Of a stretch of 64,000 nucleotides of DNA, positions 1 to 63,259 are shown one piece after another. Within the stretch, counting starts at the first letter, position 1; each line of letters opens with the position of its first letter. Under the pieces are notes generated by a model, which saw only the letters and a program-made list of their open reading frames with translations, made no database searches and was not told where the DNA came from. Source of the DNA: Deltaproteobacteria bacterium (GTDB taxonomy: Bacteria > Lernaellota > Lernaellaia > JACKCT01); the NCBI GenBank assembly GCA_020845895.1, contig JADLEX010000045.1, positions 1-64,000 on the forward strand, written 5' to 3'. A program made the translations under genes and the position numbers.

Positions 1-162
1 ACGCCCTGATGTCGCGGCGGCTGCTCTCAGGGCGGGTATGGAAACTTTTCGTTCTCGGGTCGGACCACACGTTGTTACGTCGCGGCGGCTGCTCTCAGGG
101 CGGGTATGGAAACTCGACCGGCTCCACCATGGCCGGCCCCATGCAGTCGCGGCGGCGGCTCT

Positions 163-194
163 CCCGCCTCCTCCAAGGCTTCGGCGAGGCAGGC
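163..194. repeat. Hairpin-like insert inside CRISPR repeat 3
   Basis: In the third repeat the first 17 nt (146-162) and last 17 nt (195-211) match the consensus, but the single C between them is replaced by 32 nt. These start CCCGCCT and contain AAGGCTTCGGCGAGGCAGG. With the flanking AGGGCGGG it can pair into an extended hairpin. A near-identical insert sits at the same position in repeat 5. Confidence 0.7.
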
Positions 195-332
195 AGGGCG
201 GGTATGGAAAGTTTTTGCGACCAGAATGACCGCTTCCTCCGAACGGTGTCGCGGCGCTTGCTCTCGGGGCGGGTATGGAGAGGGTTTTACGGAAAAAGCC
301 GTGGCAGTATGTTTCGTCGCGGCGCTTGCTCT

Positions 333-363
333 CCCGCCTTCGCAAGGCTTCGGCGAGGCACGC
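333..363. repeat. Hairpin-like insert inside CRISPR repeat 5
   Basis: Second copy of the insert, 31 nt, between the 17-nt left half (316-332) and the right half beginning AGGGCGGG at 364. It shares AAGGCTTCGGCGAGGCA with the insert at 163-194 and differs at a few bases in its left part. Repeat 7 (from 491) is broken at the same point by an unrelated palindromic stretch, GGCACAGCC paired with GGCTGTGCC. Confidence 0.7.
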
Positions 364-598
364 AGGGCGGGTATGACCGCGACTGCGTCGCAGGGTCGTT
401 GGTTGGTGGTTGGTGGTTGTTGGTCGCGCTGGCGCGAGGGGCGGGTATGGAATCTTTCTTCCCGATAGCCGACGAGAGATGGTACTCGAAGTCGCGGCGG
501 CCGCTCTCCCACCCGGCACAGCCGGGGGCGGCTGTGCCACATGACCCGACGAGGGTTCGCTGGGCGGCGGGTGCGTCGCGTTCCGGAATTGCCGATCT

Positions 599-6206: not shown

Positions 6207-7061
6207 CTAGACCAGTCGACCGTAACCGCTCGACGTTTTCGCGCCGATTCCGTCGTTCTTCAAGGCTTCCAGGAGAATCCGCATGGCGAGTGCGGTCCAG
6301 TCCCGTTCTCCCTCGAGCGCGATCAGGAACTTCGTGCCCGGCGCGACGTTGATGTACGCTACAGGGGTCGGGCTGTCCCAGTCCGCGGGAGGCGAATCGT
6401 CGCCCCGATAATAGTTCGGGTGATGCACGGTCATCACGTCCGGAAGGAACGGCTTGCCTCCCGGACCGCTGCCCGGGATGTACCACGCGTCGTGGAAGAT
6501 CACGCCGCCCGCGCCCGCCACGTGGCCGAACAGCAGGTCGTGCGTGGTGAAGTCCCAACCGTGTTGCTCCTCGTTTTCACGTCGCTGCTCCGGCGTCCAT
6601 GCAGGCGAGGGCATGTACTGCTTGCGGACCGGATCGGTCACGTCGTCGGACGTCGCATGTTCTTTCGCGAGCCCGCCGTACACGCGGCGGCAGGTGTGCG
6701 ACGCGAGGCCCTTGAGCGCCGAGCCGGGCAGGATCGGCACGCCGTAGGTGCGATGCAGCCGCAGCGAGGTTTCGAGCACGCTGTCCGCTCCGAGACCCAC
6801 CGCGATGCGGGAGGAGGCGGAGACGGGACTCTGAGAAAATCGATCGGCATCCGCGAATCGACTGTTCCAGCGCTCGAACGCCCCTGAGTAGGCTGGTCCG
6901 AACGAATTCAGTCCGGCCAGCTTGACGTACAGCTGCTTTTCGGAATCGTGAGCCGGCTCCCCCAAGCTCGCCACATAACGTTCGAGCGCGAGTCCAGCAT
7001 GGCTGAATGCGATGAGGTTGGGGTCCGGAAAGTGGTTTCTGCGCGCCTGGACTTCCGGCAT
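6207..7061 (-). CDS. cmr6: Type III-B CRISPR RAMP protein Cmr6
   Basis: 284 aa, usual size for Cmr6, the subunit capping the 3' end of the crRNA backbone in the Cmr effector. Recognisable RAMP features: an N-terminal helix rich in basic residues, the glycine-rich loop GSALKGLASHTCRR, then LLFGHVAGAGGVIFHDAWY and DVMTVHHPNYYRG, all characteristic of Cmr6. The start codon shares one base with the cmr5 stop (TGATG), so translation is coupled. The next gene downstream is the CorA-like protein. Confidence 0.9.
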   Translation of the reverse strand: MPEVQARRNHFPDPNLIAFSHAGLALERYVASLGEPAHDSEKQLYVKLAGLNSFGPAYSGAFERWNSRFADADRFSQSPVSASSRIAVGLGADSVLETSLRLHRTYGVPILPGSALKGLASHTCRRVYGGLAKEHATSDDVTDPVRKQYMPSPAWTPEQRRENEEQHGWDFTTHDLLFGHVAGAGGVIFHDAWYIPGSGPGGKPFLPDVMTVHHPNYYRGDDSPPADWDSPTPVAYINVAPGTKFLIALEGERDWTALAMRILLEALKNDGIGAKTSSGYGRLV

Positions 7062-7462
7062 CAGCGATCTCCTCGTGCGGCGTCGTTAGTGGGATCGAGG
7101 CCATAGATCCCCTCGGCGTAGCGCTTGTACCAAATGGACGCGTCGAGAACCTGGCGCGTCGCGAGCGCATACTTCCGAGTGTCGGGGAAGGATTGGATTT
7201 CCGTCTGCACCGTGTTCTGCGTGTATCCAAGAATCGCAGCCAGGTCAGAGAGCACCCAGCCGAACTCGGGCTTTTTCTGCTCGTCGTACTTACTGGCGAT
7301 AAACGCCACGGCCTGCGAGAGGCCGTTCGTCAGAACGAGATACGGCAGACGCATCCAGAGTCCGCCGTACTTTTCCATCTTGTCCTTTTTCGCGACACGA
7401 GCCGGCGTCTGCATGTGGACATACGCGAGACGGGCCCATTTCTGCGATTGAATCTCCGCCAT
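7061..7462 (-). CDS. cmr5: Type III-B CRISPR small subunit Cmr5
   Basis: 133 aa, all-helical, matching the small Cmr5 subunit that lines the target RNA in the Cmr complex. The pattern of an N-terminal basic helix (SQKWARLAYVHM), a middle TNGLSQAVAFIASK segment and a C-terminal YALATRQVLDASIWYKRYAEGI helix is typical. ATG at 7462 with GGGAGG upstream. It sits between cmr4 (12-nt gap) and cmr6 (1-nt overlap), the standard position. Confidence 0.9.
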   Translation of the reverse strand: MAEIQSQKWARLAYVHMQTPARVAKKDKMEKYGGLWMRLPYLVLTNGLSQAVAFIASKYDEQKKPEFGWVLSDLAAILGYTQNTVQTEIQSFPDTRKYALATRQVLDASIWYKRYAEGIYGLDPTNDAARGDR

Positions 7463-7474
7463 CGTCGTCCTCCC

Positions 7475-8392
7475 TCAAGCGCCCGCGATGAAGCGGGCGA
7501 CGCCGCGGCCCACGGTGGCCTTGCCGCCGAACTGCGTTGTGCGGTCGGCTCCGGCGGCGCCGACGGCGTGATCCAGAACCTGTGCGTCCGTCAGGTTGAC
7601 GTCGCTCTTACGGGATTTCTCGCCCATCGCGACGCCCCACAGCAGGCTCTCCGCAGGGAGGGCTTCCTCGTACCAAAGCTGGCCGTTGGCGACCGTCTTG
7701 GTGTCTTCCGCGATCCGAATCCGCGCGCAGATCTCGGTCGCGGTTTCATAGAGGAAGGCGAAGTCGTCATCCGAAACGATGACAAAACGCGCTTTGAAAA
7801 GTGCTCTCCACGTCGCGGCGGCGGAATTTGGCGTTGCTTGGATGGGCCAGAGCAATGATGAGAAATGCGTCGCCCACAAGTCGGCTGTCTCATTGCCGGG
7901 ACTCGTGCCGTTAGGCGGATTCACAGCGACCTTCAACTTCAGATCTTCCAGATAGACTGACCCCGCCGCGACAACCCCGCCATTGGCGGGAGACTTCGTG
8001 AAAACGTCGGCGTCCGCGAAGTCGAACTCAAATTGAGCCGGAGTGCCCATCGCGTCCCGCCGATACCGCTCCAGCACCATCGGCGACGTCACCCACGCGA
8101 AAGTGCCGTACAGCGAACGCACGGGCAGGCACAGCAGCCGCGCGTCGCCGAACACGATCGCCCCCGCATAATCGCTCGCATTTCCGGTCTCGGGGCCGAA
8201 GACCGCCGTCTTTTGATCGTCCGCCAGACTCGATTCCGCGCGTAAAACGCCCTTGACGGTGCTGCCGGGCACGATGGGCAATTTCGTCGCCTTTTCGCGC
8301 GCGATGGGCAGGTCGACGAGGCCGATGCCCTGTCCCGTTCCGGCGTGCAGCGGCGAGAGCGCGTGGATGAAGTACATACGTTTCGCGGTCAT
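7475..8392 (-). CDS. cmr4: Type III-B CRISPR RAMP nuclease subunit Cmr4
   Basis: 305 aa. Cmr4 forms the repeated backbone of the effector and cuts target RNA at 6-nt intervals. The N-terminal signature HALSPLHAGTGQGIGLVDLP contains Asp27, which aligns with the catalytic Asp of Pyrococcus Cmr4 (D26), so RNA cleavage is probably retained. The RAMP glycine-rich loop follows as VPGSTVKGVLR. ATG at 8392 with GGAGGG upstream; an internal ATG six codons in is an alternative start. Downstream of cmr3 by 19 nt. Confidence 0.92.
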   Translation of the reverse strand: MTAKRMYFIHALSPLHAGTGQGIGLVDLPIAREKATKLPIVPGSTVKGVLRAESSLADDQKTAVFGPETGNASDYAGAIVFGDARLLCLPVRSLYGTFAWVTSPMVLERYRRDAMGTPAQFEFDFADADVFTKSPANGGVVAAGSVYLEDLKLKVAVNPPNGTSPGNETADLWATHFSSLLWPIQATPNSAAATWRALFKARFVIVSDDDFAFLYETATEICARIRIAEDTKTVANGQLWYEEALPAESLLWGVAMGEKSRKSDVNLTDAQVLDHAVGAAGADRTTQFGGKATVGRGVARFIAGA

Positions 8393-8411
8393 GATTTCCC
8401 TCCTCGCGCGT

Positions 8412-9563
8412 TCACCACGCGCCCCAGACGGCGAGTCCGAAGCCGTCGTGTTTAAGATTCGCCAAACCGTTCGACTCGGGCGCGTCGCCGTCGCTCATCG
8501 AAGACGCGAGCCACAACGCATCCGGGTTCACTTCCGTGTTGTCCACCTTCTCGAAGAAATAGACCGACCCCGCCGGCGTCATCCGACGCAGCGGCTTCGG
8601 CCCGCCTTCGATCCACTTTCCGTTTTCCAGGCGACGCTTGATCTCCCAACCTGCCAGCGGCTTCCATCGCGGAATGCGTGCGCCGACGAGCTCAACCTCC
8701 GTTTGGGTCCCCGGGATTTTGCCCTTGAATGTTTGTGGGTCGATCCAGTGGGGTCGCCAGCCACCGGCGTAGATGGCTGGCGTCACGAGCACCATGCACA
8801 GTTGGGTCGCCGATTCGACGGTCGTTTTCCACGTCGGGGGCACAGTTGGCCAAGCGTCAACGACCGAGAAGTCCGCAAACCGCCCCTCGCCACCGATGCG
8901 GTGCGTGTAGCCGTTCAGACCGTCCGCGCTCGTGTTTCCCGTGTCGACGATCTTGACGACGAGCCCGGTCGTGACTTCCTTGCCCTGAAAATCGATCGCC
9001 TCCGTCGAGAACAACATGCCGGGTACTCCGGCGTAGTTGCCGCCTATCGCCACGTGCGTGCGCCGGTCGCGCTCGAGGGAAATGCCGCCGATGGACGACT
9101 GGTCGATCGACTCGCCCCCAGGGATGAGCCACTGACTTGCGAGATCTGTGACCTTCCAGAAGTCGCACGCCTTCCCGTATTCGGGTTTGCCGGCCTTGCT
9201 ATTGAGCGGAAGTCCGACCGGTTTGAGACCGCCGGGCAGATTGCATCCGGCTCCCGGCAACTCGACGGGCCGCAACCGATGAAACGCACCACCTTCCGGA
9301 TACGCATCCGCGGGCGCGGGGACGTAGACCTCGCTTCCGACGCGCAGCAGCGGCCCCTGGAATTTCCAGTTCACGACCGTGTCGGCCATGGCCTGGGGGA
9401 AGTCGTCGTTGTTTGCCTTTCGAACGATGGCTGTGCGCAGAGTCCCGGCCACGGCGCTCGGCGTGGGAAAGGGCAGCGACACCGCGCCACCCGCGCCCGT
9501 GTCGAAGGGTTTGGGATCGCGAAAGATCAGCGGACTGTTGGGAGTGATGACCACGCACGTCAT
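8412..9563 (-). CDS. cmr3: Type III-B CRISPR RAMP protein Cmr3
   Basis: 383 aa from the ATG at 9563, which overlaps the cmr2 stop (ATGA) and has a strong AAGGAGG upstream; the open frame extends further but those residues are antisense to cmr2. The start VVITPNSPLIFRDPKPFDTG and the following PFPTPSAVAGTLRTA are the conserved Cmr3 N-terminus, which binds the crRNA 5' handle and contacts Cmr2. The rest is typical in size and order. Confidence 0.92.
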   Translation of the reverse strand: MTCVVITPNSPLIFRDPKPFDTGAGGAVSLPFPTPSAVAGTLRTAIVRKANNDDFPQAMADTVVNWKFQGPLLRVGSEVYVPAPADAYPEGGAFHRLRPVELPGAGCNLPGGLKPVGLPLNSKAGKPEYGKACDFWKVTDLASQWLIPGGESIDQSSIGGISLERDRRTHVAIGGNYAGVPGMLFSTEAIDFQGKEVTTGLVVKIVDTGNTSADGLNGYTHRIGGEGRFADFSVVDAWPTVPPTWKTTVESATQLCMVLVTPAIYAGGWRPHWIDPQTFKGKIPGTQTEVELVGARIPRWKPLAGWEIKRRLENGKWIEGGPKPLRRMTPAGSVYFFEKVDNTEVNPDALWLASSMSDGDAPESNGLANLKHDGFGLAVWGAW

Positions 9564-11527
9564 AACGCGCCTCCTTGCTGCGCCGCCGGGGCGTTCGGAA
9601 CATCGACCGCCTCGCCGGAGTCGAGATAGGCCGGCAGCAGGGCGCGCGCCACAATGATCTCCTCCGCCATCTGCCGGAGAGACAGCCAAGCCTGATGTGC
9701 GAACGCCTCTTTCACAGTGTCGTTCGCCTCAGTCGGTGGCTCGGGAATCCGGTCGAGAATCATCTCGCGGACACGCTTCGTCAGTTGGTCTTGTTCGCCT
9801 TTCTGTTTTTTACCCAGCAGGCGTTTCAACTCGACGTGGAGCAGCTCCGCCGTGACCCAAGTTTCGCCGTTCTGATCCGTGATCGGCCCGGTCTGGCTAG
9901 CGTTCCCATAGTGGCGTGCGAGCGTGCGCATCTCGTATGCGAGGCGGTCTGGAATCAGATCCTCTCGCAGCAGGTGGACCCATCCCTTCATCCGCGTGAC
10001 GGGGCTGGTGTGTTCGTGATAGGCGTCGCCATGCGTCGCGTCGGGCCACGCCATGCGCAGTTTGATCGGCGCGCCGGAGCGTTTATAGAGGTGAAACGCC
10101 ACGGCGTTACCGCGTTTGCCATCGGCCTCCGCGAGTCGTTTATCCTCGGGGATCAAATTCGCGTTCGCAAACTCCCAACGCCCGCTCTTGGCGTCCTTCT
10201 CGGCGTCATGGGCGTTCTTGATCATTTCGCCCGCCATGGGCGTGAGCATGTGGACGATCGCCACGCCGACCGAGATAGTGCATCCCGTCACGTTCGTTCG
10301 AAAGCTCTGCTGAAGCGCTTCCACGCAATCGAGCATCCGGTCGAGCGGCACGAAGGCCAGCACGTCATCGCCGCCGGCGAAGATCGCGCTGCCGTTGGCG
10401 GCGGTTTCGACAATTTCATTCACACTATTTGCAAACGTCTGCATCCTCTGTGAGATTTCGCGATTCTCCTGAGGTGTCTTCGCGTCGCGGATCATCTTCC
10501 CCATCCCGTCGCCATCGCAGGCGATGACGGCGAGATATGGGCAAGGGGAAATTTTCGCACCGGTGACGATGTCTTTCAGGTCCTTCAGGTCTTCGACGTA
10601 GCTCGGGTAATCGCCCTTCAGACTGTCCAAGCGATCCGCAAAGAGTTGGTGGCCGTCGAAACAAAAGTCGCCATAACGGGTTTCATTCGTGTAGGAGAAG
10701 AATCCCGAGCGATTTTGTCCCTTCAGGTCCTCCAATTTTTGCCGGACCCCCAATACGGCTTGCTTCTGTCGATCGCCGTCGTCTCGGCGCATGACCCCGC
10801 GAATGAACGGATCGACCGCGATGCGCGAGCCTGGCGGAAAGTGCTCGTCGCCGGCGAGGCGTTTCACAAGGCCGGGCAGGTCGAGCATTTCGCCAGGTTT
10901 AATGCCCAGCTCGGCGCGGTGGTTGCGCCGATTGTCCGCCTCGAGCAGGCGTTGCAGCACGGACTCGCGACGCCCGTCCAGCGACGATTTGGAGACGCGA
11001 TGCGCCTGAAGGCTCGGAACGAAATCGCTGAATTCCTCCCGGGCGTCTAACAGGCGTTCTACCTGAGATCGACCTGCCCGAAAATCGTTTTCATCGAGAG
11101 GAACCCACGCCGAATAGAACTCCACGCGCTGCTCGACTTTTTGCTCGTTCCAGACGTTGTCGTGAAAACCCAAATCGGGACCGTTGTTCAGCTTGTCTTG
11201 AACATCGTCGATCGCGTCATTCCACGGAGCGTACGCACCGACTCCGGCTTTCCCGCTCGCGTCACGTGGATCGACGCCATCGGGCAGGATCGCGAGGACT
11301 CGATCCGAGGTGGGCACGGGATTCACCGAGCCGTCTTCGCGAAAATGATCGTTCAGCGGCGGCGCGATAAAATCGACTCCGTGGACCGCTCTCTTGAGGG
11401 CCGCCGCTGCGGCCAGCGCCGTCTTCTCGACGAAGTTCGACGACCAATGCAGATCGCGCGACCGGCGCGACGCTTCAATGAATTCCTGCACCGGCCCCAC
11501 CGAAAACATGAACAGGTGTTTTGCCAT
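9560..11527 (-). CDS. cmr2: Type III-B Cas10 subunit Cmr2, cyclase motif intact, no HD
   Basis: 655 aa. Large signature subunit of the Cmr complex. It begins at once with the ferredoxin-like/palm segment (LFMFSVGPVQEFIEASRRSRDL); the N-terminal HD nuclease domain of many Cas10 proteins is missing and no HD pair is visible elsewhere. The second palm domain carries ACDGDGMGKM and, at residues 385-388, GGDD within FAGGDDVLAF, so conversion of ATP to cyclic oligonucleotides or a related nucleotide signal is expected on target RNA binding. Length fits an HD-less Cmr2 (HD-containing ones are about 850-1000 aa). ATG directly follows the TAG of the upstream cmr1 copy, with GGAGG as ribosome site. Confidence 0.93.
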   Translation of the reverse strand: MAKHLFMFSVGPVQEFIEASRRSRDLHWSSNFVEKTALAAAAALKRAVHGVDFIAPPLNDHFREDGSVNPVPTSDRVLAILPDGVDPRDASGKAGVGAYAPWNDAIDDVQDKLNNGPDLGFHDNVWNEQKVEQRVEFYSAWVPLDENDFRAGRSQVERLLDAREEFSDFVPSLQAHRVSKSSLDGRRESVLQRLLEADNRRNHRAELGIKPGEMLDLPGLVKRLAGDEHFPPGSRIAVDPFIRGVMRRDDGDRQKQAVLGVRQKLEDLKGQNRSGFFSYTNETRYGDFCFDGHQLFADRLDSLKGDYPSYVEDLKDLKDIVTGAKISPCPYLAVIACDGDGMGKMIRDAKTPQENREISQRMQTFANSVNEIVETAANGSAIFAGGDDVLAFVPLDRMLDCVEALQQSFRTNVTGCTISVGVAIVHMLTPMAGEMIKNAHDAEKDAKSGRWEFANANLIPEDKRLAEADGKRGNAVAFHLYKRSGAPIKLRMAWPDATHGDAYHEHTSPVTRMKGWVHLLREDLIPDRLAYEMRTLARHYGNASQTGPITDQNGETWVTAELLHVELKRLLGKKQKGEQDQLTKRVREMILDRIPEPPTEANDTVKEAFAHQAWLSLRQMAEEIIVARALLPAYLDSGEAVDVPNAPAAQQGGAL

Positions 11528-13063
11528 CTAGTAAATCCTCCTGCCGCCGTTGTTCTTCACCCACTCGCGAAACGCCGTGAGCACCTTCTGGCCGGCGGGG
11601 GCGGTCGTGACGGCGGGCGATCGCAACGGCTGATAACGCACCCCCGTGTCCCCCGCGCCCGAAATCGTGTCGAACGGCGCGGCGCTGCCTTTGACGTAGC
11701 GGTCCTTATCCTCGGCGTTCGGTGCCGCGTGCGGGTCCATCAACACGACCTGCCCATCGGGCGGATCGGTCTCGAACCCCACGATGACGGGGAGAAACTG
11801 GTCCTCACCAACCTGAATCGCCTTCGTGATGACCGGACTCGCCAGACGGTCTTGAATTTTTCCGGCGGAATCGATCCACGCGAGAGTGAAGTTGTGCTGT
11901 TCCCTGTTGTCCCAGCCTATCGGTTTCCCAGTGATTTTGTCCCTGCGAAGCACAAAGCCCGGGTCTGGATTCGCGTAGGGCTGGTCCTTCCAATCTTTGT
12001 TTTGAAAACGGGTGATGATCGGAAGACCAAGTGAAGAACGCGGCCAAGCGGGGTCACCGAGGTGCTCGGTGTGCGGGGTGTGTTCCCACTTCGTAAATGG
12101 CTTTGGAATCGCGGCCAGTTTGCGAATCTTGTCCGGCTCCGGCCAGTCGGTGCGACGCAGGCGATGCTTCTTTTTTGGCTTCCCCGGTCGTGACTCGTCC
12201 TGCCGGAATCGCTTGACGAATCCCACCGCGGATGCCCAAGCGTCCTTCACGTTGGTGGAATCGTCGCTGCCAATCTGCATCCACGACCATCGCAGATTGG
12301 GAATGTGCCGCGCCCATTTCGGCGGCTTACCTTCCGGTCGAACCCAACCCAAGGGGTGTTCAATCGCCGGATTGGATTTCGAGTCCAAAAACTTCGGACA
12401 CACGTCCTCTGGACTCAAATATCCGGCGACACCGGACAGCACTTGGATCGTCCCAGCGCCGCGTCGTGTCCGACTACCGTAACCGCCGAAACAGATCCAA
12501 GCCCGAACCGCGGTCATGACGTCGTCGCTCAATGCTTTGGGGAAACCGAGTTCGAGCGTGAACTGCTGGTGGACGAAGAGCGGATCGGGATTCTTTCCCG
12601 GCGCCGGTCGCGACGAAAACATCGCATAAGCGCTCGCACCGCCGATATCGTCCGGCCAAACGATCGGCAAACCGTCCGGATCCTCCCCGGATGTCTCGTC
12701 CGGCTCGACCGATACAGCCACCGCCGACGGCTTCGACTCATACTCCGGCTCCGTCCGTCCGGGCTTCGGTGGGACCTGAAAGTGAACGCCCCCCCAGATC
12801 TCCTGCTCATTCTGAAACAGTTCATCGATCGATTTGAATTTCGCGAAGTCCTGCGTCGCCCGCCACCAGAAACGAAGGTGCCCGCGCACCGACGCCGCGC
12901 GGATCGGCTCGATCTCGTGGAACTTGCGCGGCTCGACGCCGCCGCCGAAGACGGGCGTCGCCACCCGCAGACGCACGCTGAACGATGTTCCGGCGTGAAC
13001 CTCGATCGGAAGAGCTTCCGTTGCCGGTGCAGTGTGATGTGCCAGATTTCGTCGCGGGGACAC
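11528..13063 (-). CDS. cmr1: Type III-B RAMP protein Cmr1, copy A
   Basis: 511 aa. N-terminal RAMP signature VRLRVATPVFGGGVEPRKFH followed by AASVRGHLRFWWRATQ, diagnostic of Cmr1, which sits at the head of the complex near the crRNA 3' region. A second Gly-rich stretch (WICFGGYGSRTRRGAGTIQ) is the conserved Cmr1 motif at about residue 195. It is longer than textbook Cmr1 (about 340-450 aa), with insertions in the C-terminal half. It opens with the same MSPRR as the gene just upstream, 14 nt away, so the two are tandem paralogues that have diverged. The stop abuts the cmr2 start. Confidence 0.88.
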   Translation of the reverse strand: MSPRRNLAHHTAPATEALPIEVHAGTSFSVRLRVATPVFGGGVEPRKFHEIEPIRAASVRGHLRFWWRATQDFAKFKSIDELFQNEQEIWGGVHFQVPPKPGRTEPEYESKPSAVAVSVEPDETSGEDPDGLPIVWPDDIGGASAYAMFSSRPAPGKNPDPLFVHQQFTLELGFPKALSDDVMTAVRAWICFGGYGSRTRRGAGTIQVLSGVAGYLSPEDVCPKFLDSKSNPAIEHPLGWVRPEGKPPKWARHIPNLRWSWMQIGSDDSTNVKDAWASAVGFVKRFRQDESRPGKPKKKHRLRRTDWPEPDKIRKLAAIPKPFTKWEHTPHTEHLGDPAWPRSSLGLPIITRFQNKDWKDQPYANPDPGFVLRRDKITGKPIGWDNREQHNFTLAWIDSAGKIQDRLASPVITKAIQVGEDQFLPVIVGFETDPPDGQVVLMDPHAAPNAEDKDRYVKGSAAPFDTISGAGDTGVRYQPLRSPAVTTAPAGQKVLTAFREWVKNNGGRRIY

Positions 13064-13077
13064 GGTCGCGTTTCTCC

Positions 13078-14562
13078 TCAGAACACCAGCCGGTAGGCCC
13101 GTTGCTGCGCGGTAAAATAGGTCAGGAACGAATCCAGCGCGTTGTCCGCCGCCGTGCCCGTGTGATGTGCATTCATCGGCGCAACGCGAGCAGCCTTGGT
13201 GCGGTCGTGAAGCTCCGCCGCCGTCGGGCGATACGGCAAGCCCGGGTGCGCGCCGGGCTGAGTTTTCACCACGAGATCGCCGACGAGTTGCCGCGGCTTC
13301 ACGCCGTTCAGCACGAGCGCCATGGCGCAGTAACGCACCTGATCCTGCGCATTGCGGAACGCGAAGGGCCGGATGATGAGCGGAGAGCCGAAGCGATCGG
13401 TATCTTCGTGCGTGAGCATGGCGTTCGCCGGCTCGTCTTTTCTGGGATCGTTTCGATCATCCTTGAACTTGAAGATGATCGGCAACCCGAAATCCGCTCG
13501 TGGGAAGAAGATGTCGTCATTCTGATGAGGCGGATGCGCCCAATTCGCGGGTTTGTGACCGCGCCCATCCGCCAACCGGCGCAGCGCATTCGGTTCCGGC
13601 CACTTGCTGCGTCCGGGATGGTTGGCTCCCGCAGGCGCAGCGTCGCGGCCATCGGGCGCTTGCCGGAACTTCTGAAATTCCGTGACGGCGGCCTTCCACG
13701 CCTGATAGGGGTCGGGGAACGACTGCGTGCCGACACGCAGCCGCGCGCCTTCGAGCGTCGGCCAGTCGTGAGCGGTCTCTTCGACCGCGGGGAGGCCGAT
13801 GCCGATGCGACCGGTAAATTCCGAAAATGCGGTGGCGGTGCCGAGTTCCGCGCTCGCGGGGACGCGGTCGATATCCATCAGTGCGCCGAGCCCCCGCCGC
13901 GTGCGCGCCCCGATGCCGCCGAACAGCACCCAGCAACGAAACGCGGCTTCGACATCGGCCTTGGCCGGCGCGCCGAGCCGTGAATGATCGAGATGCAGCG
14001 TGAATTCCACGAACCGCGTGGCAAACTGTTGATTGTGACCGACGCGGACCTTGGCCGTGGGGACGGGCGCGTTTCCCTGAAGCTCGGCACTCGGACGCTG
14101 GAGAGGAAAGAGAGCGTATCCCGCGCCCGCGCCAAATGCCCAATTCGGCAGGGGTTTTGGCTTGTGCGTGTTGGGATTCACCTCGTGCACGCCGGCCGGA
14201 ATCGTCACACCCTTCTTCGGCGCGTTTCCCCACTCCACCCACAGCTTGACTTTGGACTCTTTCGACTCTTCATCGCCGCCCAGCGCGGTTCCGCCGAAGA
14301 TCTCCGCCTCGTCGGCCCGCAATTTGGCTAGGCCGTCCGTCCCACAGTAACGCTGCCGGTGGCCGACCAGCGCGCGCCACCAAAAACGCAGGTGTCCGCG
14401 GATCTCGGGCACGCGGATGGGATCGGCATCGTCGGACTGCTGCGCCTGCGCCCCGCCGCCCATGATGGGGGTGATGACACGCAGGTTGTACGACTTCACA
14501 TCCGTGGTTTTCGCACCCGGAGTCGGCTTCGGATCTGTCGCCAGGGCTCTACGAGGGGACAT
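13078..14562 (-). CDS. cmr1: Type III-B RAMP protein Cmr1, copy B, first gene of the operon
   Basis: 494 aa. Same architecture as copy A: MSPRR start, NLRVITPIMGGGAQAQ, RVPEIRGHLRFWWRALVGHRQ, and WVLFGGIGARTRRGLGAL at about residue 220. Both copies have intact frames and conserved motifs, so neither looks like a pseudogene; sequences between the motifs have diverged well beyond a recent duplication. ATG at 14562 has GGAGG 6 nt upstream. It is the promoter-proximal gene; the AT-rich region at about 14600-14720 is the likely promoter. Confidence 0.88.
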   Translation of the reverse strand: MSPRRALATDPKPTPGAKTTDVKSYNLRVITPIMGGGAQAQQSDDADPIRVPEIRGHLRFWWRALVGHRQRYCGTDGLAKLRADEAEIFGGTALGGDEESKESKVKLWVEWGNAPKKGVTIPAGVHEVNPNTHKPKPLPNWAFGAGAGYALFPLQRPSAELQGNAPVPTAKVRVGHNQQFATRFVEFTLHLDHSRLGAPAKADVEAAFRCWVLFGGIGARTRRGLGALMDIDRVPASAELGTATAFSEFTGRIGIGLPAVEETAHDWPTLEGARLRVGTQSFPDPYQAWKAAVTEFQKFRQAPDGRDAAPAGANHPGRSKWPEPNALRRLADGRGHKPANWAHPPHQNDDIFFPRADFGLPIIFKFKDDRNDPRKDEPANAMLTHEDTDRFGSPLIIRPFAFRNAQDQVRYCAMALVLNGVKPRQLVGDLVVKTQPGAHPGLPYRPTAAELHDRTKAARVAPMNAHHTGTAADNALDSFLTYFTAQQRAYRLVF

Positions 14563-35330: not shown

Positions 35331-36200
35331 TCAATTTTCCGCGAAATACAGATCGTCGAACCAGACTTCGCCCCCTTCGGCAGCCCAGGTTGCGTCCCCG
35401 AACAACACTCGGCCGATGGCCACTGCCGTTTGCTCGAAACGCAACGACAGATCCACGCAATCGGTTTCCGAACCGTCCATCGAAAGGGAAAAAAGACCCG
35501 CCGAGTAGTCGAGTGCCAATTCGAGCTCAACCCACGTATCCGAAAGCACGGTCGCGGCACAGTCCTTCAGGTCCTCGAAATCGGTCGCCATCGTTCCTCC
35601 ATGGGAGTCGACGGTAACCGTCGTGGCGATATCGATATTCTCGTCGTCGAGCGTGATGAAAAACGTCGCGCCCCATTTTCGATAGACGAAGAACCGGAAG
35701 AGGGTATCGGAGTCAGGCGGCGTAACGGAGTGAAGGGCATAGGCGTAGTCGCCCGAATCGGTGCCGCCGACAAATTTGACGGCGTGGTCCCCAACCCTCG
35801 TCCGGTCGCTGAAATCCGCGATCTCCACCGTGCTTGCGCCGCCCACGTTATCGCTCCACAAACCATTGAGGTCGCCCAGCGGAGCATCATCGAAATCGAA
35901 GGACTCGGACCAACCGGTGTCGTCGTCGGCATCATCGTCGCTGTCATCGTCGCTGTCATCGTCGCTGTCATCGTCGGCGTCATCGTCGGCGTCATCGTCG
36001 GCGTCATCGTCGCTGTCATCGTCGTCGTCGGCGGCGTCATCGTCGGCATCGTCATCGGTGTCGTCGTCGGATTCATCGTCATCTCCAGCGGAGCCGCCGG
36101 AGTCGTCGTCGTCATCGCCACACCCGCAGCCGCTCGGGAAGATCCCGAGTGCGATGAATGCGAAGCTCGTCAGGACAACCCGAAAGGCCAAAGTCTTCAT
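35331..36200 (-). CDS. Asp-rich linker lipoprotein
   Basis: 289 aa from the ATG at 36200. Signal peptide ending in the lipobox GIFPSGC, then a linker of about 80 residues built from DDDS, DDDA and DDDT units, then a 170-residue C-terminal beta-sandwich-like domain (SFDFDDAPLGDLNGLWSD, LFRFFVYRKW, VELELALDYSAGLFSLS, VWFDDLYFAEN), plausibly a concanavalin-like/LamG fold. Surface-exposed, possibly Ca2+-binding. The DNA of the linker is a 12-bp tandem repeat. Confidence 0.75.
   Translation of the reverse strand: MKTLAFRVVLTSFAFIALGIFPSGCGCGDDDDDSGGSAGDDDESDDDTDDDADDDAADDDDDSDDDADDDADDDADDDSDDDSDDDSDDDADDDTGWSESFDFDDAPLGDLNGLWSDNVGGASTVEIADFSDRTRVGDHAVKFVGGTDSGDYAYALHSVTPPDSDTLFRFFVYRKWGATFFITLDDENIDIATTVTVDSHGGTMATDFEDLKDCAATVLSDTWVELELALDYSAGLFSLSMDGSETDCVDLSLRFEQTAVAIGRVLFGDATWAAEGGEVWFDDLYFAEN
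35920..36070. repeat. 12-bp tandem repeat encoding Asp-rich linker
   Basis: On the + strand TCATCGTCGCTG and TCATCGTCGGCG alternate in about ten copies, encoding DDDS and DDDA on the minus strand. Such arrays are prone to slippage, so linker length may vary between strains. Confidence 0.75.
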
Positions 36201-62365: not shown

Positions 62366-63259
62366 TCATGCGCACATGCCGCCGCCGTCATCATCGTCAT
62401 CCCCCGACGAGCCCCCATTCGACTCTCCACCGCCGCCCGGCCAATTCGGTCCGGCGTCGTCATCGTCGTCGTCCCCCTCGTCGTCGTCCGGGAACCACCC
62501 GCCGTCGTCATCATCCGGGAACCAAGTGTCGTCGTCCGAATCGTCGTCGGTGTCGTCGTCGTCCGCATCGTCGTCTGAGTCGTCGTCGACATCGTCATCC
62601 GCGTCGTCGTCCATGTCATCGTCCGTGTCGTCATCCGACGGGATGGTCGTGGTCGTGGTGGCCGGCGTCGTGGTCGTGGTGGTGGTCGTGGTCGGGATGT
62701 CGTCCGTGATCTGGAGCGCCCACGACCCGAGCGTGCCCGTGTCGACCGATGCGTCGTCGCAGATGGTCATCGTCCACGTGCCGAGCGAAGAGTCGCCGAT
62801 GTAGTTGTCGAGACCCAGCGCGGAGGGATTGCCGTCGTCCCAAGTTTGAAAACGGCGGTTGGCGTAAGAAGCGTTGGAATCGTTGAGCCCGTTGTCGGGA
62901 AATCCCGCCGCGTCTTCGTCAAAGGTCCCGTAGATGTTGTTCGCTCCGTCCCCGGGGGTGCCGCCGAGCGTGTGATCGAGAAACAGCGTGATCGTCTCAC
63001 TCGCCGGCGACGTAAGCTGGATCCACAGGTCTCCGCGATACGAGTGCGTGAGGACGATGCCGAGTTCGAGTTCGGTGATCGTGTGGTCGACCGGCACGTT
63101 GATCTGGCTCGTCACGGACGACGAGCCGCAGGTGTCGTCGGGAATCGCCAGATTCGGTGTCGCTTGGTATTGGTAGAACCCGGCTTGGGCCGGAGCCATC
63201 GCGGCGAACACGATCGCCGTGATCATCACCGTCATGAAAACGAACTTGGACTGCGACAT
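62366..63259 (-). CDS. P-domain secreted protein with Asp-rich C-terminal region
   Basis: 297 aa from the ATG at 63259 (GAGGTGG upstream). Signal peptide ending AQA, then a proprotein-convertase P-domain (TITELELGIVLTHSYRGDLWIQLTSP, FDEDAAGFP, LGTWTMTICDDASVDTGTLGSWALQI), a Thr-rich linker and about 80 residues of DDDT/DDDA repeats broken by WFPDDD, ending GGGMCA. Probably surface-displayed or released. Confidence 0.8.
   Translation of the reverse strand: MSQSKFVFMTVMITAIVFAAMAPAQAGFYQYQATPNLAIPDDTCGSSSVTSQINVPVDHTITELELGIVLTHSYRGDLWIQLTSPASETITLFLDHTLGGTPGDGANNIYGTFDEDAAGFPDNGLNDSNASYANRRFQTWDDGNPSALGLDNYIGDSSLGTWTMTICDDASVDTGTLGSWALQITDDIPTTTTTTTTTPATTTTTIPSDDDTDDDMDDDADDDVDDDSDDDADDDDTDDDSDDDTWFPDDDDGGWFPDDDEGDDDDDDAGPNWPGGGGESNGGSSGDDDDDGGGMCA

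Follow-up and report, generated by a model that had tools for sequence, protein, structure and literature searches.

The window analysed here, 64,000 nucleotides long, starts at one end of contig C45 within a CRISPR array; the left part of this array lies beyond the contig. The canonical repeat of this array is GTCGCGGCGGCTGCTCTCAGGGCGGGTATGGAAAC. Repeats 1 and 2 (positions 11-45 and 79-113; plus strand, like all array features below) are intact, perfect copies, whereas repeats 3 to 7 are all degenerate. Repeat 3 (146-211) and repeat 5 (316-375) are split by an insert, and the latter is also mutated at its 5'-tag end; repeat 4 (248-282) has no insert and shows a GCTT variant; repeat 6, which ends at 454 (3' half at 437-454), has no insert either, and only the 5' half of repeat 7 (491-507) is present. 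The orientation relative to the leaders of two sister arrays places the trailer end at positions 146-508, and the pattern of perfect and degenerate repeats fits the trailer decay suggested by the original prediction. No Rfam family was found in the window at the gathering threshold.

The type III-B effector genes cmr6, cmr5, cmr4, cmr3, cmr2 and two cmr1 genes lie on the minus strand at 6207-14562. The presence of cmr1-6 together with an array of the same repeat identifies a type III-B CRISPR-Cas system, with the Cmr3 match (100.0 bits) falling 0.4 bits below its curated cut-off. Two neighbouring genes that match Cmr1 (11528-14562) are unusual in a type III-B operon. ARAGORN also placed a plus-strand tRNA-Arg within a cmr1 gene (13772-13866); Rfam shows none there, and the call is probably a false positive. 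Two further arrays with the window's repeat were found in the same genome at the two ends of C111, a 17.4-kb contig (1-288 and 17040-17406), each behind a similar leader-like stretch. One of them has an RT-Cas1 fusion beside it, a protein of 987 aa with matches to group II reverse transcriptase and Cas1 models and a putative Cas6 part at its N-terminus. The insert is absent from all repeats of both C111 arrays, including both leader-first repeats. The GCTT variant is common to repeats 4 and 5 of the window and the first (leader-first) repeat of one C111 array, which hints at exchange between repeats.

The insert of repeat 3 is 31 nt long (CCCGCCTCCTCCAAGGCTTCGGCGAGGCAGG, 163-193) and that of repeat 5 is 30 nt long (CCCGCCTTCGCAAGGCTTCGGCGAGGCACG, 333-362). 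Both lie in the same orientation between GCTCT and CAGGGCGGG, at the site GCTCT^CAGGGC. The nearly identical inserts at one point described earlier were therefore confirmed, with lengths of 31 and 30 nt instead of 31-32 nt. The proposed replacement of a single central C was not: with the insert removed, repeats 3 and 5 read GCTCT|CAGGGC like intact repeats, and neither a loss of bases nor a target duplication is seen. There are exactly two occurrences of AAGGCTTCGGCGAGGC in the 4.98-Mb genome, both within the window array, and a 41-nt match to the repeat-5 version had no second place in the genome at up to 3 mismatches; the suggested search for other genomic copies thus returned none beyond the array, and no donor remnant was seen in this genome. 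The divergence between the inserts (about 4/31) is similar to that of the surrounding repeats (about 7/35, counted by eye). As RNA, the inserts are weak hairpins that fold no better than shuffled sequences (z -0.37 and -0.72). The spacers neighbouring the inserts are mutually unrelated, and duplication of a repeat-spacer unit was rejected on this ground.

The canonical repeat is predicted to form a 6-bp stem (pair probabilities 0.90-0.98) with a 3-nt apical loop, and the insertion point falls inside this loop. Folding of the whole repeat was not better than that of shuffles (z 0.48). Predicted folds that keep the stem and let the insert extend the hairpin exceed the free minimum by 5.3 kcal/mol in repeat 3 and by 1.4 kcal/mol in repeat 5; a substitution in repeat 3 breaks one of its six stem pairs. 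The apical-loop position and these stem-kept folds suggest that crRNA maturation, whose disruption the original prediction proposed, need not be destroyed, and we infer from such models that the insert may simply lengthen the predicted repeat hairpin. Type III crRNAs retain an 8-base 5' tag from the repeat end. In the tag region, repeat 3 keeps ATGGAAAG, and repeat 5 lost the tag sequence through other mutations. The insert is not thought to serve a CRISPR function.

Repeat 7 is associated with another palindrome. Its 5' half is followed by CCCACCCG (508-515); this is similar to the repeat-3/5 element at its left end (CCCGCC) and, by this resemblance, is possibly the remnant of a third copy. 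A REP element of a resident, RAYT-linked family starts 8 nt past the half repeat (516-543). A 3' half of repeat 7 could not be distinguished from chance, as an equal or better match was found in 284 of 2000 random 100-nt windows. Repeat 7, described earlier as split, is rather cut short, and the palindrome near it is indeed a different one. At up to 3 mismatches, this REP (GCACAGCCGGGGGCGGCTGTGCCAC) was located 56 times in the genome (control 0), nine divergent pairs 33-48 nt apart being among these copies, and the repeat-7 palindrome folds better than shuffles as RNA (z -4.58). The reverse strand reads GTGG-CACAGCCG-CCCC-CGGCTGTG, that is, a GT(A/G)G head, an 8-bp stem and a CCCC loop. The genome contains one Y1_Tnp match (30.4 bits, C124:13213-13455), and the gene is flanked by inverted REPs at 13085-13109 (minus) and 13630-13654 (plus); the suggested search for a RAYT transposase accordingly detected a single, REP-flanked RAYT-type gene. 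RAYT-linked REPs are described in PMC2817692 as a GT(A/G)G head followed by a GC-rich perfect palindrome with a middle of 2-4 nt. The repeat-7 REP shares with the elements described there the dispersed palindromes, the head, the inverted pairs and the flanked Y1 gene. For repeat 7, then, the mobile REP-like palindrome was borne out; it is an ordinary new REP family, different from the insert of repeats 3 and 5. The 28-nt form of this REP occurs at 53 places in this genome, 3 in G002 and 9 in G006, and at none in G001, G003, G004 or G005. One Glu/Pro-rich ORF of more than 900 aa (L156 434-3199; C23:36033-38798) also contains nine resident REP copies, which are in frame and lie in both orientations; they contribute peptides such as EHVAQPPPAV and AQPGAAVPHD.

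The insert of repeats 3 and 5 belongs to a family that is distributed across phyla. A gapped pattern allowing both versions matched 14 loci, which are distributed over 12 genomes from at least six phyla, the host MAGs being Acidobacteriota, Patescibacteria, Bacteroidota, Omnitrophota, Opitutia, Cyanobacteria and one unclassified bacterium; three of the 14 loci share one contig-name prefix and come from one MAG. The same pattern had no match in viral contigs. Plasmids and phages were rejected as carriers, with weak matches only (best E 4e-3 and 0.2, respectively). The family consensus is CCCGCCTTCGCCAAGGCTTCGGCGAGGCAGG, about 31 nt long. The repeat-3 insert has two differences from it, and the repeat-5 insert has one deletion and one substitution. 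The 24-nt form, at up to 3 mismatches, was found at 74 places in those 12 genomes (reversed control 0), which entered the comparison through 12 of the 14 loci and were chosen for having a match. An unselected survey of 290 genomes yielded 22 places in 8 genomes (reversed control 0), of which 11 are in a genome of the same family (G001) and at least one (in G094) looks like chance. When 98 genomes were surveyed more strictly with the repeat-5 core, this genome alone matched. In a profile of 51 sites, the left edge is CCC (C in 47, 47 and 39 of the 51 sites at positions -1, -2 and -3) and the right edge is A, G/A, G (ARG). The consensus folds at -15.3 kcal/mol, more strongly than the two inserts, into a bulged stem with an 8-nt loop. 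The original prediction of a REP-like element thus stands for repeats 3 and 5 as regards a palindrome-like dispersed element; the insert as a further copy of the resident REP was rejected, as the sequences differ. The prediction had also named confinement to this array, together with an older longer form of the repeat, as evidence against it, and the first half of this holds within the genome: there is no further copy of the insert here, but copies exist in other genomes. Because the insert matches a family found elsewhere, two further readings were rejected, namely that it is the repeat duplicated in inverted form or a spacer in the wrong place. In G001, a 91-nt tandem repeat (C212, L148/L165 449-712; 2.9 copies) carries one copy of the element per unit; a candidate element-bearing CRISPR array in that genome was rejected, since the 91-nt periodic locus is this tandem repeat with near-identical units.

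The copies lie in diverse surroundings. Among the 14 loci, bacterial RNase P RNA is interrupted twice and an FMN riboswitch once, every time within a hairpin loop of the Rfam model. Pkinase ORFs contain three of the copies, placed between DFGLAK and GTAAYM, and a ClpB ORF and a serine hydroxymethyltransferase (SHMT) ORF contain one each, in frame. Alignment to the solved SHMT 2dkj showed an 11-residue gap that coincides with the element peptide, and the gap at the element in ClpB is less clean. The other six loci are in uncharacterised ORFs or between genes; an open frame at these six carries little weight, as all frames of the consensus are free of stop codons. In G001, 4 of the 13 element copies (224 kb) split the palindrome GAAGCAGGTGAGGA^CACCTGCGGTCCC, of which seven unsplit copies occur in the same stretches. 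However, general targeting of hairpin loops was rejected: virtual empty sites were no more hairpin-like than random positions (mean 4.18 at 50 sites vs 4.43 at 1927 control positions, p = 0.92), and the 34 sites outside the G001 loci gave the same result (p = 0.98). The original term "site-preferring" therefore does not hold as a general rule. The lack of hairpin enrichment over the 50 sites suggests that loops, in RNAs and in the CRISPR repeat, are places where an insertion survives, and that they are tolerated rather than preferred.

How two repeats came to carry the insert may be considered against this background. The same site, the same orientation, the lack of any other genomic copy and a divergence like that of the repeats favour one entry followed by copying, which is the better of the two options in the original prediction. 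We consider it probable that repeats 3 and 5 hold two copies of the cross-phylum element, that one insertion was copied between neighbouring repeats of the decaying trailer, and that the truncation of repeat 7 was a separate event. Against this reading stand the insert-free repeat 4, the missing donor remnant, the lack of general loop targeting, the weak hairpins of the two inserts and the incompleteness of the array at the contig edge. Alternatively, the element may have inserted independently twice, or three times if repeat 7 is included, with the repeat sequence or the hairpin extruded from it as a preferred target. This would also explain why repeats 3 and 5 carry it at one position, why repeat 7 has CCCACC there and why the surrounding spacers are unrelated, and several G001 copies do share one register in another palindrome. 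This reading is nevertheless unlikely, as it must accommodate an identical orientation both times, a 4.98-Mb genome with no other copy and the missing loop preference over 50 sites. An ancestral longer repeat is a still less probable source; all repeats would once have contained the element, and repeats 4 and 6 as well as the newer repeats would have lost it exactly. This reading would account for the alternation of insert-bearing and insert-free repeats, and slippage between the single C at either edge could restore the short form, but several exact losses are needed and the element is missing from all repeats of both C111 arrays, the leader-first ones included. The contig edge inside the array and the weak folding of the inserts could point to an assembly error or to chance similarity of a GC-rich hairpin; this we regard as very improbable, given two non-identical copies in unique spacer contexts, each two differences from a cross-phylum consensus, and reversed-pattern controls of 0 in 290 genomes and 0 in 12 genomes.

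If one insertion was indeed copied within the array, we infer the following copy history. One copy of the element, brought by a putative mover, would have entered one repeat long ago and been tolerated because it mainly lengthened the repeat hairpin. The second repeat would have been reached by recombination between repeats. Repeat 4, without insert, lies between repeats 3 and 5, which counts against plain copying at adaptation. Both insert-bearing repeats would then have decayed with the rest of the trailer. The last repeat may have been truncated at or near a copy of the resident RAYT-linked REP, a link suggested by position only.

Several known systems resemble the repeat-3/5 element in part. 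It differs from RAYT-linked REPs in having no GT(A/G)G head at either end of the 51-site profile. CGTC- and GTAG-tagged palindromic repeats, which include the Rickettsia palindromic elements RPE-4 and RPE-6, are likewise palindromes of 20-40 nt that occur in several phyla, some of them in frame inside protein genes, according to PMC3733652 and PMC10969869. The repeat-3/5 element has in-frame copies in unrelated proteins (Pkinase, ClpB and SHMT) and in this respect is like a Rickettsia palindromic element. However, set against the textual description of the tagged repeats, it lacks both tags over 51 sites, forms a bulged stem with an 8-nt loop instead of the 8-9-bp stem and 4-5-nt loop given there for the CGTC-tagged repeats, and has copies that are nearly identical between distant phyla, as well as copies located in RNase P RNA, a riboswitch and CRISPR repeats. 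The small mobile repeats SMR-A of Haloquadratum walsbyi, as portrayed in PMC3119063, have no transposase and no target duplication and are found inside the palindromes of other repeats, which is similar to the present case; they are, however, archaeal, about 110 bp long and strongly targeted to palindromes, whereas the element described here is about 31 nt long, resides in bacterial genomes and shows no palindrome preference over 50 sites. That paper also reports a MITE in H. walsbyi inside a CRISPR spacer, not a repeat, and insertion of IS elements and prophages into CRISPR loci is mentioned in PMC10359306. In the text of the open-access literature searched, no prior description was found of the repeat-3/5 element, nor any of CRISPR repeats that harbour a short palindrome.

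A broader reading is offered tentatively and is, on balance, doubtful: one palindromic element of about 31 nt, moved by a putative enzyme, spreads between phyla and settles where a short hairpin is tolerated (protein surface loops, RNase P RNA, riboswitches and CRISPR repeats); here it became part of the CRISPR repeat itself, and recombination or adaptation within the array then spread it to other repeats. More generally, if the interpretation given above is right, a very short, selfish-looking palindrome with nearly identical copies in several phyla can enter an immune-memory array as well as core enzymes and core RNAs without evidently destroying them. The mover between distant bacteria, and the extra hairpin that a CRISPR repeat can bear while still being processed, would then be testable. 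For annotators, peptides such as PASAKASARQ, RLRQGFGEAG or LPRRSLGEGG in metagenomic proteins can be footprints of the element.

Other repeats were also observed in the window. A perfect 26-nt palindrome, CCCTCTCCCGTCATGACGGGAGAGGG, precedes four 19-nt units of the GGGGTGAGG type (599-717). Similar stretches adjoin REP copies in two other loci (L053 and L061), and are thus probably a third dispersed family. Repeats of the 12-nt GTCATCGTCGGC type form long runs at 35901-36117 and 62522-62641, and perhaps encode Asp-rich low-complexity linkers.
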